35,091 nucleotides of DNA from the NCBI GenBank assembly GCA_012728365.1, contig JAAYFE010000221.1:1-35091 (forward strand). The letters run 5' to 3'. The notes beneath the pieces were generated by a model, which ran no database searches, was not told where the DNA came from, and saw only the letters and a program-made list of their open reading frames with translations. The DNA is from Tissierellia bacterium. GTDB lineage: Bacteria; Bacillota; Clostridia; Tissierellales; Tepidimicrobiaceae. Shown here one piece after another: positions 11,691 through 18,396 of the stretch. Made by a program: the position numbers and the translations under genes. How positions within the stretch are numbered: the stretch's first letter is position 1; each line of letters opens with the position of its first letter.

Positions 11691-11864
11691 TTGAACAGAA
11701 ATGGATTTAGAAATGGAACATTATTAGGAAGCATATTAGGGCTTTCCCTTGGTATGGTTGTTGGAACTAAAGTAATAAATAATATTCCAAAAAGGAAGAT
11801 AATGAAAACAGCAAGAAGAGCAAAATCAACTTTGATGAATGGAGTGAATTCATTGTGGGGATAG
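11691..11864 (+). CDS. Small glycine-zipper membrane protein
   Basis: A 57-aa protein. One hydrophobic segment near residues 10-29 is rich in spaced glycines (GTLLGSILGLSLGMVVGTKV), a glycine-zipper-type membrane helix. A basic tail follows (KRKIMKTARRAKS). The start is TTG 11691 behind AAAGGAGAGG (11676-11684); an in-frame ATG at 11661 has no comparable site. YtxH-like small proteins look like this, but I cannot assign it. It lies between the PRC-barrel gene and the permease, and an 11-bp hairpin overlaps its stop codon. Confidence 0.65.
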   Translation: MNRNGFRNGTLLGSILGLSLGMVVGTKVINNIPKRKIMKTARRAKSTLMNGVNSLWG

Positions 11865-11883
11865 GCAGCTTAGCTGCTTATCC
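11859..11883 (+). repeat. 11-bp hairpin over the stop of the small membrane protein gene
   Basis: GGATAGGCAGC (11859-11869) pairs with GCTGCTTATCC (11873-11883) around TTA, with one G-T pair. No T-run follows. It ends eleven bases before the ribosome site of the permease and supports the later start of that gene. Confidence 0.6.
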
Positions 11884-11908
11884 AATATTAAAAATGGAGA
11901 CAAGTATT

Positions 11909-13102
11909 ATGAATGTATATTATCCACATTTAAGTAGAAATTTAATGATATTAATATTTATATTGCTGGCCTTGATAATTTATTATCTCATACATATTGG
12001 AAATAGATTTGTAGAAAGCAATAAAAGAATTAGAATTAGTAAGAAAAAAGGCTTACCCATTATTGGAATTATAATATTTATATATATTTTTGCCCAATTA
12101 TCTCAAGAATTTACTATATTAAAAGATACTTTTTTTACTATAATTGCCTCAATTGTAATAGCTTATTTATTTAATCCTATAATAAATTATTTTGAAAAAC
12201 ATAATATATCTAGAACCTTAGGGATCTTAATATTGTATGTAGTTATTTTGGGTATAATAGTTGGAATTTCTGTATCCATAGTTCCAAGGATTGGAGAGGA
12301 GATAGGAGGGCTTTTATCTATAACTCCTACCTATATAAAAAAATTTTCGGATTTCTTAAATAACTTATATGAAAAGTATTATTCAGAAGTAGAATACATA
12401 CCTTCTATAATGAAAAGCATAGAAGAAGTAGTTATTCAAAATATAGATAGATTGCAAAATTTAATAGTTAATAACATAAGTAAATTTATTGATGGAGTTG
12501 TTAAAGCTTTTAGTAAAATAGTAAGCTTTATACTAATACCTATATTAACTTTTTACTTTTTAAGGGATAAGGACTACTTTAAAAACTTGTTATACTTGAC
12601 TATACCAAAGTCTAAGAGGCAAGATGTAAAAGAGCTATTTGTGGAAATAGATAGGGCATTAAGCCAGTTTATAAGGGGCAGGTTAATTTTAGCAGTATAT
12701 GTTGGCATTGCCACCACAATACTGTTACTTATTTTAGACATTAATTTTGCAATAGTCATAGGTTTGATAACAGGGATTGCAGATATAATTCCATACTTTG
12801 GGCCCTTTTTAGGCTTTCTACCTGCTGTTATATTTGCCTCTTTAGATAGTCTTGTAAAGGGATTTTGGGTTGCCATAGCCTTTGTAATAATACAGTGGAT
12901 AGAAAACAATGTATTAGCACCTAAAATAATAGGGGACAGTACAGGGATGCACCCCATAACAGTGCTATTATCTTTGATTATAGCAGGGGGAATGTTTGGT
13001 GTAATGGGGATGATCTTTTCTGTTCCTGTAGTAGCTGTAGCAAAAATATTAACAGGATTTTTTATAGATAAAATTAAAAAGCGAAATTTAATAAAAAGAT
13101 AG
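11909..13102 (+). CDS. AI-2E family transporter (YdbI/TqsA-like permease)
   Basis: A 397-aa integral membrane protein of the AI-2E exporter family, a group with varied substrates (autoinducer-2 export, Na+ or peptide-like antiport), so the cargo here is unknown. Hydrophobic helices appear near residues 10-30, 45-90, 110-135, then after a hydrophilic central domain (YIPSIMKSIEEVVIQ) at ~195-220 and six more toward the end. Family marks are IPYFGPFLG, QWIENNVLAPKIIG and the IAGGMFGVMGM block near the C-terminus. The start is ATG 11909, with ATGGAGA at 11894-11900 as ribosome site; an earlier GTG at 11855 would overlap the upstream gene and a hairpin. It is followed by the alaS promoter. Confidence 0.88.
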   Translation: MNVYYPHLSRNLMILIFILLALIIYYLIHIGNRFVESNKRIRISKKKGLPIIGIIIFIYIFAQLSQEFTILKDTFFTIIASIVIAYLFNPIINYFEKHNISRTLGILILYVVILGIIVGISVSIVPRIGEEIGGLLSITPTYIKKFSDFLNNLYEKYYSEVEYIPSIMKSIEEVVIQNIDRLQNLIVNNISKFIDGVVKAFSKIVSFILIPILTFYFLRDKDYFKNLLYLTIPKSKRQDVKELFVEIDRALSQFIRGRLILAVYVGIATTILLLILDINFAIVIGLITGIADIIPYFGPFLGFLPAVIFASLDSLVKGFWVAIAFVIIQWIENNVLAPKIIGDSTGMHPITVLLSLIIAGGMFGVMGMIFSVPVVAVAKILTGFFIDKIKKRNLIKR

Positions 13103-13117
13103 AAGAATATTACTGTG

Positions 13118-13146
13118 TTGACAAATATATATCTTTAAATTATAAT
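13118..13146 (+). promoter_or_regulatory. Consensus sigma-A promoter of alaS
   Basis: TTGACA (13118-13123) and TATAAT (13141-13146), both perfect, with a 17-base spacer. Transcription should begin near 13153. Confidence 0.92.
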
Positions 13147-13171
13147 CCAAATATGGATGTATCGAGGATTA

Positions 13172-13201
13172 TCGTCCCTTTAAGGAGGGACGAATTTTTT
13201 T
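13172..13201 (+). terminator. Leader terminator (attenuator) before alaS
   Basis: TCGTCCCT (13172-13179) pairs with AGGGACGA (13186-13193) around TTAAGG, followed by ATTTTTTT. It lies only about 20 bases after the predicted start of transcription and before alaS, so most transcripts would stop at about 50 nt unless read-through is allowed. No T-box is present. Confidence 0.85.
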
Positions 13202-13228
13202 AAAAAACGGCATAAGAGGTGTATGAAT

Positions 13229-15868
13229 ATGAAAAAAATTGGTTTACATGAGATAAGAAAAGAATTTTTGGATTTTTTTGAAGGAAAGGGACATTTAATA
13301 TTACCTTCTTTTTCCTTAGTTCCTCAAAATGACAAGAGCTTATTATTAATAAATGCAGGTATGGCTCCTTTGAAACCTTATTTTACTGGGGAGAAAAAAC
13401 CCCCTAGAGAAAGGGTTGCCACATGTCAGAAATGCATTAGGACAGCAGACATTGAAAATGTAGGGAAGACAGATAGGCATGCAACTTTTTTTGAAATGTT
13501 AGGTAATTTTTCCTTTGGCAATTATTTTAAGAAGGAAGCTATCCAGTGGGCATGGGAATTTTTAACTGTAAATATGGAGATACCAAAGGAGCTACTTTGG
13601 GTATCTATATATGAAGAAGATGATGAAGCTTTTGAAATATGGAAAAATGAAGTAGGAGTACCTGCAGAGAAAATTGTAAGATTGGGTAAAGAAGATAATT
13701 TTTGGGAATTAGAAGTAGGTCCTTGTGGCCCCTGTTCAGAGATATATGTAGATAGGGGAGAAAAATATGGTTGTGGAAAAGAGGACTGCGAGCCTGGCTG
13801 TGATTGTGATAGATATATTGAAGTGTGGAATTTAGTATTTACTCAGTTTGATAAGGATGAAAATGGAAATTATCATCCTTTAGATCATCCAAACATAGAT
13901 ACTGGTATGGGCCTTGAGAGAATAGCCACAGTTATGGAAGGAACAGATAATATCTTTGAAGTTGGAGAAATTAAAAAGATTATAAATATTGTAGAAAGGG
14001 AAGCAGGCAAAAAATATGGGCAAAAGTATGAATGGGATGTTTCAATAAGGGTGATAACAGACCATGCAAGGGCCATGACCTTTTTAGTTTCTGATGGTGT
14101 TATACCTAGTAATGAGGGAAGAGGTTATGTATTAAGAAGGCTTATTAGAAGGGCTGCAAGGCATGGTAAACTACTAGGAATTGAAAAGCCTTTCTTAAGT
14201 TCTGTTGTATCAGGGGTTATTGAATCTTGGAAGGTAACCTATCCTGAAATTGATGTAAATAAAGAGAGAATATTGAAGGTTATAAGGGCAGAAGAAGAAA
14301 AGTTTCAGGAGACAATCCATCAAGGAATACAAATACTAGATAATTATATTGAAGAAATAAAAAATAAGAATCAAAAATATCTTGATGGGGAAAAAGCATT
14401 TAAACTATATGATACCTATGGATTCCCTCTTGACTTAACCCGTGAAATATTAGAAGAAAAAGGCCTAGCAGTAGATGAAGAGGAATTTAATTTCCATATG
14501 GAAGAGCAAAGAAAAAGGGCTAGAAAGGCCAGAGAAAGATCTACAGATGCTGGTTGGAAACATGGGGAAATAATTGATTTTAGCAAAGAAATAGATACAG
14601 AGTTTAAAGGTTATGAAAGTCTTGACACTAATTCAAGGGTAGTTGAGATAATAATTGATGGCAGTTCAACAGGCACAATAAAGGAAGGTATGGAAGGTAT
14701 TATAGTATTAGACCAGACACCTTTTTATGCAGAAAGGGGAGGCCAGGTAGGAGATAAGGGTATTTTTAGGAACAATAACTTTTTAGCCCATGTTGTGGAT
14801 ACCCAATATGCAAAAGATGATATTATTATTCACTATATAAAAGTAGATAAGGGAGTATTAAATATAGGGGATAGTGTTGAAGCACAGGTAGATTATAATT
14901 ACAGGCATGATGTAATGAGGAATCACTCAGCCACCCACCTGCTCCATAGGGCTTTAAAAGATGTATTAGGTGAACATGTAAATCAAGCAGGTTCCATTGT
15001 ATTACCTGATAGGTTAAGATTTGACTTTACCCACTTTGAAGCGGTACAAGAAGAAGAATTAAAAGAAATAGAAAGAATTGTAAATGAAAAAATATTAGAG
15101 GCCCTTGAAGTGAAGACTATAGAAACAAGCCTTGAAAAGGCACAAGCAGCAGGAGTAGTTGGACTATTTGAAGAAAAGTATAAAGATAAGGTTAGGGTAG
15201 TTCAAATGGGTGACTACTCAAAGGAACTTTGTGGAGGAACCCATGTTAACAATACAAGTTTTATAGGAATGTTTAAAATAATTTCAGAATCTAGTATTGC
15301 AGCTGGAGTAAGGAGAATTGAAGCCATTACAGGTAGGGCTGTCTATAATTATTTGTTAGGGCTTGAGGAAGATTTAAATAATATATCACAAATTATGAAG
15401 GTGAATAGAAAAGATCTATCTAGCAAAGTCCAAAATATAATGGAAGAATTAAAATCAAAGGAAAAAGAAATAGAAGCACTGAAAGCAAAGATGGCATCTT
15501 CCATAGTTGACGAAATATTAAATTCTAAGCAAAATATAAATAATATTGATTATATTGCCTGCAAGGTTGAAAATATGGATATGAATAGCTTAAGGAACTT
15601 GGGAGATAAGTTAAAGGATTCCCTAGGTTCTGGTGTTATAGTTCTTTCCAGTGTAGATAACAATAAAATATATTTCTTATGTGCAGTTACAAAAGATTTA
15701 GTAGAAAAGGGAATCCATGCTGGTAATATAATAAAAGAAGTAGCTAAAGTAGCTGGTGGAGGAGGCGGAGGCCGCCCAGATATGGCTCAAGCAGGTGGCA
15801 AGGATGTATCTAAAGTAGATGAGGCCTTAAATAAAGTACCTTCTATACTAGAAGAACAGCTAAAATAA
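13229..15868 (+). CDS. alaS: Alanyl-tRNA synthetase
   Basis: An 879-aa class II synthetase of normal length. In order: the aminoacylation core (INAGMAPLKPYFTG near residue 40, GNFSFGNYFKKEA near 95), the editing domain with zinc-binding His566/His570 (HSATHLLH) and Cys668/His672 (CGGTH), and the C-Ala domain with GGGGGGRPDMAQAGG near residue 850. It charges tRNA-Ala and clears Ser/Gly-tRNA-Ala. Two ATGs are possible (13223, 13229). I chose 13229 because GAGGTG (13216-13221) is seven bases away; from 13223 the spacing would be too short. It is preceded by a promoter and terminator leader and followed by a 21-bp hairpin. Confidence 0.97.
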   Translation: MKKIGLHEIRKEFLDFFEGKGHLILPSFSLVPQNDKSLLLINAGMAPLKPYFTGEKKPPRERVATCQKCIRTADIENVGKTDRHATFFEMLGNFSFGNYFKKEAIQWAWEFLTVNMEIPKELLWVSIYEEDDEAFEIWKNEVGVPAEKIVRLGKEDNFWELEVGPCGPCSEIYVDRGEKYGCGKEDCEPGCDCDRYIEVWNLVFTQFDKDENGNYHPLDHPNIDTGMGLERIATVMEGTDNIFEVGEIKKIINIVEREAGKKYGQKYEWDVSIRVITDHARAMTFLVSDGVIPSNEGRGYVLRRLIRRAARHGKLLGIEKPFLSSVVSGVIESWKVTYPEIDVNKERILKVIRAEEEKFQETIHQGIQILDNYIEEIKNKNQKYLDGEKAFKLYDTYGFPLDLTREILEEKGLAVDEEEFNFHMEEQRKRARKARERSTDAGWKHGEIIDFSKEIDTEFKGYESLDTNSRVVEIIIDGSSTGTIKEGMEGIIVLDQTPFYAERGGQVGDKGIFRNNNFLAHVVDTQYAKDDIIIHYIKVDKGVLNIGDSVEAQVDYNYRHDVMRNHSATHLLHRALKDVLGEHVNQAGSIVLPDRLRFDFTHFEAVQEEELKEIERIVNEKILEALEVKTIETSLEKAQAAGVVGLFEEKYKDKVRVVQMGDYSKELCGGTHVNNTSFIGMFKIISESSIAAGVRRIEAITGRAVYNYLLGLEEDLNNISQIMKVNRKDLSSKVQNIMEELKSKEKEIEALKAKMASSIVDEILNSKQNINNIDYIACKVENMDMNSLRNLGDKLKDSLGSGVIVLSSVDNNKIYFLCAVTKDLVEKGIHAGNIIKEVAKVAGGGGGGRPDMAQAGGKDVSKVDEALNKVPSILEEQLK

Positions 15869-16245: not shown

Positions 16246-18396
16246 TTGAAGCATTTAAGAAGCTTTATGATAACTATACTTACCTTATTTGTTCTAATGT
16301 CTACATACCACATTTCTTATGGAATAGAAGGAGAAATAGTTAATAAAAAAGTCTATATGGTTATAGTAAACAAGCTTACCCTTGAAGATATAGAAAAGAT
16401 GCCAAACCTAACAAAAGTAATTGATGAGGCTGGCTTTGCATTAATGAATGTACGTGGCTTAAATAGCTATACAGGAGCAGAGAGCTTTGCTACCATTAAT
16501 TCTTCTGCTAAAACCTATGCAAATAATACTAGCTCCCAATTTTTCAATTTAGAAGGTATATACAAAGAAATATATGAAAATAGACTAGGTAAAATAGAGG
16601 GCAGATATTCTGTTGGAAATATAGAGATTGGTAGGTTATATGTTCAAAATGAAGATAATAGATATAGTCCTCATATAGGTTTATTGGGAGATGTACTTCA
16701 CAATAATGGCTTAAAGACTGCTATATACGGAAATAGCGATACAATAGATTATATCTATAGGTATGCATCCTTTATACCCATGGATTCTAAAGGTTTAATA
16801 GACTACGGAAATGTCGATAACATACTTATTGAGGACGAAAAATACCCTTATGGCTTAAAGACAGATTATAATAAAATAATAAATGAAATACAGGCAATAA
16901 AGGATGAAGCTTCTCTTTTTGTAATTGATACAGGAGACCTATTCAGGCTTCATACTACAAGTAGCTATATAAGCGAAGATAGATTTTTTGAGCAGAGAGG
17001 TAATATTTTAAGTGACATTGATAATTTTATTGGAAATTTAATTGATAATATTAGCAAGGAAGAATCCCTTTTGTTTATATTTAGTCCCAATAGCGGTGAA
17101 GAGAAAGTTAATGGAAGTCGATTATCCCCCTTAATATTATGGGGTAGCAATATAAGTGGAGGTATTCTTAGTTCATCTACGACTAAGTATCCAGGCATTG
17201 TCTCAAATATAGACATTGGTCCAACTGTTGCTGATTTTTTTGATATAAAAATGGAAAAAGCTGCTGGTAATAAAATTACCTGGGAAAAAAGGGAAGATGT
17301 TTTTAGCTTTGTTAAATCAATAAATGGGCGTATTGATTTAACTTCTAAGGTAAGGACCAGATCTTTAACTAGCTATGGAGTTATTTCTATTATAATACTC
17401 TTACTTTCAACTTTTTTCTTAATAATAAAATTTAAAGCAGATTTTAATATTAAGAAAACAATAAAAGTATTACTTCTTTTTCTATATGGAATTCCATTAA
17501 TTTTTATAATAAGCTCCTTGTTAAATATAAACAACATTTATAGATTCTTTCTAGTTATAACAATATTTAGTATTGTATATCTTTTCATTATTAGTAGATA
17601 TAATAATGTAAGTACTTTGTATATCCTTACTTTTTTATATTTTATAGTTATAATATTAGATATATTGCTAAATAATGTCTTTAGTAAATTTTCAGTTTTA
17701 AGCTATGATCCAATTATTGGAGCAAGGTATTATGGAATAGGAAATGAAATGGTTGGCTTACTATTACCAATTGCTATGATTAGTATAAATTTAATATATA
17801 AAAAACTTAAAAATATAGTAGTCTTAAGTTTTCTATTACTTTTAGCAGTAGTATTAGTAGGCCATCCTCAATTAGGTGCCAATGTTGGTGGCATGATTTG
17901 TTTTTTATCTGCCAGCCTTCTATTTTTATTTGAGGCCATGGAAAGGAAGTTTACTTTTAAAAATATAATTCTTATTGCATTGGCAGTGGGCCTATTCTTA
18001 GGAATTTTAGCCTTTATAGATATAAAATTTAATCCAAATCCTACCCATTTAGGTAGAGCCTTAATGAAGGTTGGTAGTGAGGGCTTATATATAGCTAATA
18101 ACATAATCCTTAGAAAACTAATGATGAATATAAAGCTAGTTGGTAATTCTTTCTGGACAAAAGTTTTATTTTCAAATATAATTGTTCAAGGTATATTATC
18201 CTATTTTTATAGAAATGGATACGAACATTTAATAAAAAGGGAAATTAATAAAGGATATATATCTTCTTTATTTGGCAGCATAATAGGGTTTTTAGTTAAT
18301 GACTCAGGTCTAGTACTTGCTGCAATATCTGTAAATATTAGTACAATATTTTTATTATTTCTATTTACTGAAGAAAAAAGAACACATCAAGAATAG
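16246..18396 (+). CDS. Membrane protein with degenerate alkaline-phosphatase-like domain
   Basis: A 716-aa protein. A signal peptide or anchor spans residues 7-25, then an outside domain to ~375, then about ten membrane helices from ~380 to the end (first: SIIILLLSTFFLIIKF; GARYYGIGNEMVG lies near 500). The outer part has the layout of the alkaline phosphatase/sulfatase fold: the first strand VYMVIVN (36-42), PNLTKVIDEAGFALMNVRG, YTGAESFATINSS (75-87) and the late SPLILWGS. But the usual metal-binding Asp after the first strand is Asn42, and the usual Asp-His-Gly reads SPNSGEE (280-286). It may be a non-catalytic pseudo-enzyme. The start is TTG 16246 behind AGGGGAG, 13 bases after ireB, so probably one operon. 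The substrate and function are unknown. Confidence 0.72.
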   Translation: MKHLRSFMITILTLFVLMSTYHISYGIEGEIVNKKVYMVIVNKLTLEDIEKMPNLTKVIDEAGFALMNVRGLNSYTGAESFATINSSAKTYANNTSSQFFNLEGIYKEIYENRLGKIEGRYSVGNIEIGRLYVQNEDNRYSPHIGLLGDVLHNNGLKTAIYGNSDTIDYIYRYASFIPMDSKGLIDYGNVDNILIEDEKYPYGLKTDYNKIINEIQAIKDEASLFVIDTGDLFRLHTTSSYISEDRFFEQRGNILSDIDNFIGNLIDNISKEESLLFIFSPNSGEEKVNGSRLSPLILWGSNISGGILSSSTTKYPGIVSNIDIGPTVADFFDIKMEKAAGNKITWEKREDVFSFVKSINGRIDLTSKVRTRSLTSYGVISIIILLLSTFFLIIKFKADFNIKKTIKVLLLFLYGIPLIFIISSLLNINNIYRFFLVITIFSIVYLFIISRYNNVSTLYILTFLYFIVIILDILLNNVFSKFSVLSYDPIIGARYYGIGNEMVGLLLPIAMISINLIYKKLKNIVVLSFLLLLAVVLVGHPQLGANVGGMICFLSASLLFLFEAMERKFTFKNIILIALAVGLFLGILAFIDIKFNPNPTHLGRALMKVGSEGLYIANNIILRKLMMNIKLVGNSFWTKVLFSNIIVQGILSYFYRNGYEHLIKREINKGYISSLFGSIIGFLVNDSGLVLAAISVNISTIFLLFLFTEEKRTHQE

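Follow-up and report, generated by a model that had tools for sequence, protein, structure and literature searches.

The closest described counterpart of the leader analysed here is the T-box leader of alaS (RF00230), as found in Clostridium acetobutylicum and Bacillus subtilis. The alaS leader in the window, by which we mean the whole stretch of 35,091 nucleotides under analysis, has in common with it the gene, the consensus kind of promoter and an end formed by CGTCCC...GGGACG and a T-run, and the start-site segment is similar to that of the T-box leaders in some neighbouring families. The window leader, however, is without Stem I, specifier, Stem III, bulge and antiterminator, and has no means to read tRNA-Ala; it is about 49 nt long, against roughly 200-300 nt for an alaS T-box leader. 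Promoter-proximal attenuators with a dedicated switch, such as pyrG, the Q sites and B. subtilis trp with TRAP, are a further counterpart. The window leader shares with these, and with the AlpA sites, an early terminator that limits read-through, but neither a conserved antiterminator nor a binding site nor a factor could be found for it.

Reduced T-boxes have also been described. Natural variants without Stems II and IIA/B occur before glycyl genes and C. acetobutylicum alaS (PMC4695836). These deletion variants are reported to keep Stem I, Stem III, terminator, antiterminator and the response to tRNA, whereas the window leader keeps just the promoter, the start and the terminator end. A degenerated T-box has been reported before MFS-family transporter genes (PMC2494555); it is likewise a decaying T-box, but the passage describing it mentions neither a promoter-terminator remnant nor alaS. 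No description of the present alaS leader, or of any leader reduced to a promoter and a terminator, was found in the literature searched, which did not cover subscription journals. The window leader acts, if at all, as a plain attenuator built from the parts of a T-box leader.

All features described below lie on the forward strand. The gene for alanine--tRNA ligase, alaS, occupies positions 13229-15868 (TIGR00344, 1009.7 bits, E 1.1e-303; Pfam tRNA-synt_2c). The listed open reading frame opens at 13223; a start at 13229 appears more likely, because the spacing of the Shine-Dalgarno sequence GAGGTG (13216-13221; 7 nt to ATG 13229 and 1 nt to ATG 13223) fits it and because the nearest relatives (G001 and G003) open at the second ATG. 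The upstream neighbour codes for an AI-2E family transporter (11855-13102; PF01594, 229 bits) and its stop lies 15 nt before the alaS promoter. The original prediction had named a perfect promoter and, close behind it, a stem with a T-run, and both are present. The promoter is a SigA (sigma-70-type) consensus, TTGACA-17-TATAAT, at 13118-13146 (TTGACA at 13118-13123, TATAAT at 13141-13146; score 12/12). It is followed by the start-site segment CCAAATATGGAT (13147-13158), which is like that of the T-box alaS leaders of families f9 and f16 and is CCAAATATAGAT-like in most relatives. Transcription is predicted to start at about 13153, as deduced from the position of the -10 element. The terminator stem-loop TCGTCCCTTTAAGGAGGGACGA begins 19 nt further on (13172-13193; 9 bp, five of them G-C, with a 4-nt loop), matches the terminator end of T-box alaS leaders, and is separated by a single A from a run of seven T (13195-13201). 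A G+C-rich stem followed by a U-run, as in an intrinsic terminator or attenuator, is thus found between promoter and gene. From the positions of promoter and terminator, the attenuated leader RNA is predicted to be 49 nt long (13153-13201), and this leader alone folds as the terminator (-15.1 kcal/mol; z -2.4 in comparison with shuffles). Elsewhere in the window, an open frame of 716 aa (16246-18396) lies between ireB and an aldo/keto reductase gene, with no Pfam or NCBIfam match at E 0.001.

None of 5000 dinucleotide shuffles of positions 13000-13240 contained a perfect promoter, one contained an equally good terminator (at least 8 bp, 5 G-C, 6 T of 8), and none of the 5000 had a promoter and a terminator within 60 nt. 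By itself the terminator is less impressive, as a generic scan found 3 terminator-like sites in 2.5 kb against 1.4 expected. The genome to which the window belongs (G000) has 40 perfect promoters. The set examined comprised 22 rows, corresponding to 20 distinct sites since two were listed twice, and a terminator followed within 60 nt at two of the 20, alaS and one other. That other promoter (L271; C127:15297) has a terminator-like hairpin (AGCCACATAGGTGGCT, with TTTTT behind it) no more than about 50 nt downstream and sits some 300 bases downstream of a probable selenocysteine tRNA gene, recognised by eye, which is itself behind a perfect promoter (L270). The pattern TATAATN{15,40}CGTCCN{3,16}GGRCG matched in 54 of 150 genomes, and its sole match in G000 was alaS. 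The reversed control pattern matched once in G000 and also in many other genomes, so that matches away from alaS mean little.

The same 150 genomes of relatives were used to assess conservation. An AlaRS match was found in 147 of them and the DNA upstream of alaS was used in 143; of the remaining seven, three had no match, three had a partial or weak match without the gene start, and in one the contig began there. Five of the 143 upstream pieces were shorter than 500 nt (G004, G007, G051, G074 and G097). Alignment of the leaders showed the promoter-proximal terminator to be real and conserved: in the window's own family, f1, all 20 leaders share one plan, consisting of the promoter, a CC and A/T-rich start, a CGTCCC...GGGACG stem (or a mutated form of it), a T-run and alaS. 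The plan recurs in f2 (1/1), f13 (6/6) and f15 (1/1). Among the 28 genomes of f5, six show it with CGTCC, and most of the rest have a different short hairpin. TTGACA-17-TATAAT is present in all 20 f1 leaders and in those of f2 (one), f13 (six) and f15 (one), and part of f5 has TAAAAT or TAGAAT. These five families comprise 56 genomes, of which 54 have promoter-bearing leaders (G103 and G147 fell outside the promoter pattern), and a hairpin with a T-run was found in 51 of the 54, being missing in G088, G106 and G115. Seven f5 leaders were first scored as terminator-less; G094, G097 and G136 gained a terminator under a looser rule, that of G136 being probably unrelated.

Among 24 genus representatives, identity was 83-84% in the stem arms, 68% in the 10-nt T-tail, 49% in the loop and 43-44% in the linker; in the flanks it was 34% in the 15 nt after the tail and 36% in the 20 nt before the promoter. 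The last 8 nt of the promoter's downstream spacer were 75% identical, and the distance from the -10 element to the stem was 23-28 nt in 22 of the 24. Stems with compensated changes, CGTCCC/GGGACG, CCTCCC/GGGAGG, CGTCCT/AGGACG and GCCCC/GGGGC, all pair. With one leader per genus, 166 of 168 stem cells were paired, against a mean of 142.7 and a maximum of 158 in 1000 shuffles; some rows were one position out of register, and the figure is partly a matter of construction because the stems had been picked for pairing. We conclude from the alignments that a hairpin with a T-run is maintained in the short-leader families. In other families, the same scan found a promoter alone or nothing recognisable (f19, f14, 24 of 31 f4 and 2 of 3 f10 genomes). 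A hairpin at nearly the same place, mostly CCTCCC...GGGAGG, was seen in 7 of the 31 f4 genomes and also in several of f5 (e.g. L160 and L151); in f4 and part of f5 the T-run behind the hairpin is shorter. The CCTCCC...GGGAGG hairpin of f4 and f5 may be a descendant that has drifted, or it may have arisen independently. The T-box motif was found in 18 alaS leaders, distributed over f6, f7, f8, f9, f12, f16, f17 and f18. Among 79 of the 80 named loci (L054, with no upstream DNA, was left out), the T-box motif was present in 16, and in 12 a terminator-like hairpin came after a promoter, L065, L078 and L082 being among the chance cases.

A T-box had been predicted to be absent before alaS and the leader to be too short for one, and both statements held. 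No covariance-model match to RF00230 was obtained in 13050-13300 at E up to 10, and Stem I with its specifier codon is absent, just 19 nt separating the predicted start from the stem. The T-box bulge motif (UGGN in AGGGUGGNACCGCG) was absent upstream of alaS in all 56 genomes of f1, f2, f5, f13 and f15, the upstream DNA searched being 141-292 nt in G004, G007 and G097. The leader is therefore not a T-box riboswitch, since the defining sensor parts are absent. This does not reflect a general loss, because the genome keeps about 20 T-box matches (20 by Rfam, 18 of them above the cut-off), including one in the window at 165-374 (160.1 bits in a scan of the whole window), directly before leuS (421-2832). 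What the window leader does have is a T-box-type terminator with a U-run, as judged by the stem, the T-run and a profile match of 6.0 bits (see below).

The original prediction also envisaged a dedicated sensor on the leader, and here the search within the window's lineage gave nothing in its favor: no antiterminator stood out above shuffles (mean z -0.27 over 32 leaders), no ribosome site for a leader peptide was seen, and no G3:U70-type pair. Three candidates were considered. A leader-peptide attenuator is rejected: the ATG at 13153 lies at the extreme 5' end without a ribosome site and opens a frame that has no alanine codon before the stem; in relatives this ATG is not conserved, and any ATG before the stem occurs in just 16 of 54 leaders. 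The identity pair by which AlaRS recognises tRNA-Ala is G3:U70. A minihelix mimic binding AlaRS is not supported by the pairs, since across 51 stems a G-U with the G on the 5' side occurred a single time, at pair 6, and never at pairs 1-5. Lastly, no other known RNA family matched the leader at its gathering score; RprA and snoU31b matched at chance level (E 8-9).

We built a profile from 15 T-box alaS leaders of the order to which the window belongs, with 314 positions, the T-box motif at about 208-221 and CGTCCC at about 230. Among the matches listed, the short leaders align from positions 214-234 onward, and most of these matches start at a position of at least 218, at or after the T-box bulge. 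The window leader aligns from position 214 with 6.0 bits (E 0.016) and beats 40 of 40 of its own shuffles. Scores of at least 0 bits were reached by 30 of 54 short leaders and by 3 of 2160 shuffles, and scores of at least 6 bits by 14 of 54 and by none of 2160; among the 32 leaders whose stem has CGTC, 29 scored higher than every one of their own 40 shuffles. The part matched is the A1 strand and the CGTCCC terminator, and some 200 bases, those of the tRNA reader and the antiterminator, are missing between start and terminator.

The start end was compared as well. By inspection, the T-box alaS leaders of f9 and f16 open with TATAATCC...TATAG, or nearly so, as the short leaders do; they end with ...GGGTGGTACCGCG...CTCGTCCCTAAG...TTTTTT. 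A CC after the -10 element is found in 42 of 54 short leaders and in 8 of 18 T-box alaS leaders (f7, f9 and f16), the other 10 being without it, and at none of 19 other perfect promoters examined in the genome of the window. Some short leaders also align at their start with the first 15-22 positions of the profile, among the matches listed at E of at least 11 and no better than shuffles; start-anchored matches occur in 19 of 54 short leaders and in none of 2160 shuffles, which do not preserve TATAAT. The similarity at the start thus rests mostly on inspection, because the E-values equal those of shuffles and the shuffles lose TATAAT. Individual genomes show further arrangements. In the AlaRS tree described below, G034 is nested among T-box rows, those of f16; its alaS leader is a separate short one, and the terminator matches the profile (E 0.013). 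The leader of G029 (f11) matches the profile at its end (224-311, E 1.7e-6), at its start with just E 5.2, and not in the middle, and has no T-box by Rfam. In L046 (280-489; MAG Clostridia bacterium Tb.RUG.494), a perfect promoter is followed by AAGGGCATTACCGCG before CTTCGTCCCTTT and a CGTCCC terminator; to the eye this looks like a T-box antiterminator that has no Stem I and an altered tRNA-binding UGG, a lead only, and Rfam has no T-box there.

In an AlaRS tree of 93 rows, the short-leader families form one clade (42 rows, support 88/97), and all 16 T-box rows fall in a different clade (23 rows, 97/99). Grouping of the short-leader clade with f4 is weakly supported (75/78), and 4 of 7 outgroup alaS leaders have the T-box motif. 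Labels were set by hand to short leader for G020, where the script had chosen the wrong hairpin, and for G018 and G010, whose stems are mutated. T-box presence on the tree alone fits two losses and two gains alike and does not decide between loss and gain. Since T-box alaS leaders in neighbouring families have a matching terminator end, a T-box with a deleted sensor is the best reading of the leader; an internal deletion of about 200 nt would be the simplest account of a T-box-type terminator without an antiterminator, deletion being the direction of change that we infer. The similarity of the terminator end, the absent middle and the retention of the hairpin with compensated changes are all read from the sequences. 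The original prediction held that such control has no standard model, and in this it overlooked the simplest origin. Loss of a riboswitch is mostly visible as mere absence; here the ends survive, and the missing part can be placed.

We lean towards the view, from sequence comparison, that the alaS leader is a collapsed T-box acting as a fixed attenuator, without sensing of tRNA-Ala. The ancestral alaS T-box leader would have lost about 200 internal nucleotides, comprising Stem I and the remaining sensor stems together with the bulge and the greater part of the antiterminator's 5' strand. It would have kept the consensus promoter, some 10 bases at the start of the transcript, the end of the A1 strand and the terminator. 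Without the antiterminator, the RNA would fold mainly as the terminator. Most RNA polymerases would then stop at about 13195-13201 to give the RNA of about 49 nt, and a fixed fraction would read on into alaS. Dependence of alaS on read-through seems unavoidable, because an essential gene starts 27 nt behind the terminator, a gap too small to hold a promoter. Placed in series, the strong promoter and the leaky terminator may hold AlaRS at about the former non-induced level, and the fraction of read-through would depend on how strong the terminator is and on general factors (NusA, NusG), not on the charging of tRNA-Ala. Termination with a fraction of read-through, a passive mode of action and the start site itself are what we infer from the layout of the leader, and a gene preceded by a strong promoter and a terminator does not necessarily have a working switch. 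The question posed is whether the terminator outlives the sensor through setting the expression level of an essential gene.

The median terminator score was -2.7 for 32 short leaders and 31.2 for the 17 of 18 T-box alaS leaders that were scored (p 3e-5, genomes being counted as independent); G030 (T-box) and G130 could not be scored. The weaker terminators of short leaders are chiefly those of f1 (median -5.8, against 14 elsewhere), in which one or two bases stand between stem and T-run. Compared with the T-box terminators of the window's own genome, of which 10 of 20 could be scored since the motif pattern missed the other 10, the difference was not significant (p 0.15). A weaker promoter where the terminator has been lost was not seen: f10 (G028) and f19 keep 12/12 promoters, which counts against a level-setting role. 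In B. subtilis, an alaS-lacZ fusion rose just two-fold on alanine starvation (PMC4695836), and the alaS sensor may for that reason be cheap to lose. Also in B. subtilis, NusG, alone and with NusA, aids termination at 88% of 1400 intrinsic terminators (PMC8060035). General termination factors could modulate read-through into alaS.

It seems to us unlikely that the leader is instead a regulated minimal attenuator, in which AlaRS, an alanine-responsive protein or a small RNA would bind the hairpin or the nascent RNA and shift read-through. Such binding would be in keeping with a hairpin that is kept in sequence as well as in structure, and at least 4 of the 6 bases of the terminator 5' arm can pair before the 3' arm is made in 15 of 32 leaders. 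These folds are weak, however (mean -2.9 kcal/mol, against -11.0 for the full leader), and, apart from stronger competing folds in L038, L042 and G020, no competing structure stands out over the 32 leaders, as indicated by the mean z given above. The stems are without the G-U of tRNA-Ala at the first five pairs, and loop and linker, where identity falls to 49% and 43-44%, are little conserved.

A distance of 19 nt separates the hairpin from the predicted 5' end, and a hairpin with a shorter T-run is seen in f4 and part of f5. Both observations could be accommodated if the hairpin served chiefly to stabilise the read-through alaS mRNA as a 5' cap, with termination a side effect. We consider this improbable: the T-run, for which a cap has no need, is conserved too, the 10-nt tail being 68% identical against 34% in the bases after it.

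Even less probable, in our estimate, is that the terminator is that of the upstream AI-2E transporter gene, its overlap with the promoter region of alaS being incidental. The AI-2E gene does precede 48 of 54 leaders, with its stop -44 to +30 nt from the promoter. In G142, however, the upstream frame is a different one and the leader is intact. This evidence for independence rests on one genome, because the other five leaders without an AI-2E match are uninformative, three having too little upstream sequence and two (G088 and G106) being also without the hairpin. The fixed distance of 23-28 nt between the -10 element and the stem in 22 of 24 genus representatives argues in the same direction, as does the matching terminator in T-box relatives, which is part of the alaS leader. 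Least probable of all is a processive antitermination of the lambda Q or AlpA kind, in which a promoter-bound factor lets the polymerase pass the terminator: the downstream spacer is conserved, many relatives have a -10-like TATAGA after the start, the terminator is nearby, and AlpA acts at a site of such geometry (PMC9371919), but T-box alaS leaders, which have no need of such a factor, carry similar promoter and start segments, and the window itself has TATGGA, not TATAGA.

The collapsed T-box favored above has a parallel outside the short-leader clade. In the Caldanaerobacter family (G151; NCBI Thermoanaerobacteraceae), a promoter-terminator arrangement precedes alaS in 19 of 20 genomes, 16 of them recognised by pattern and three (G159, G161 and G167) by eye. 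The plan is TTGACT-17-TATAAT or TAAAAT, about 25 nt, CCGTCCC...GGACGG or similar, a T-run and alaS. Among four other genomes of that order, two (G174 and G175) have a long leader with the T-box motif and two have neither form. The same short form appears to have arisen again in a second group, the Thermoanaerobacteraceae. Intact and lost forms within one order, and the same outcome in a second order, make this a testable case of regulatory RNA decay.

Part of the Caldanaerobacter family keeps GCGGG...CCCGT, which is like the A1 helix of a T-box and able to compete with the terminator. Competing folds reach -9.2 kcal/mol in L038 and -8.2 kcal/mol in L042, both of this family, and -8.6 kcal/mol (z -3.8) in G020 of f2. 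We entertain with some doubt the wider possibility that alaS T-boxes repeatedly collapse to the same end point of about 50 nt, a promoter with just a terminator behind it, which selection then preserves in many genera as an independent regulatory element, and that in the Caldanaerobacter family and f2 the A1-like hairpin has perhaps been captured by another signal. The sole Caldanaerobacter-family genome without a short leader, G156 (L372), has unrelated DNA, possibly a mobile element, just before the ribosome site of alaS.
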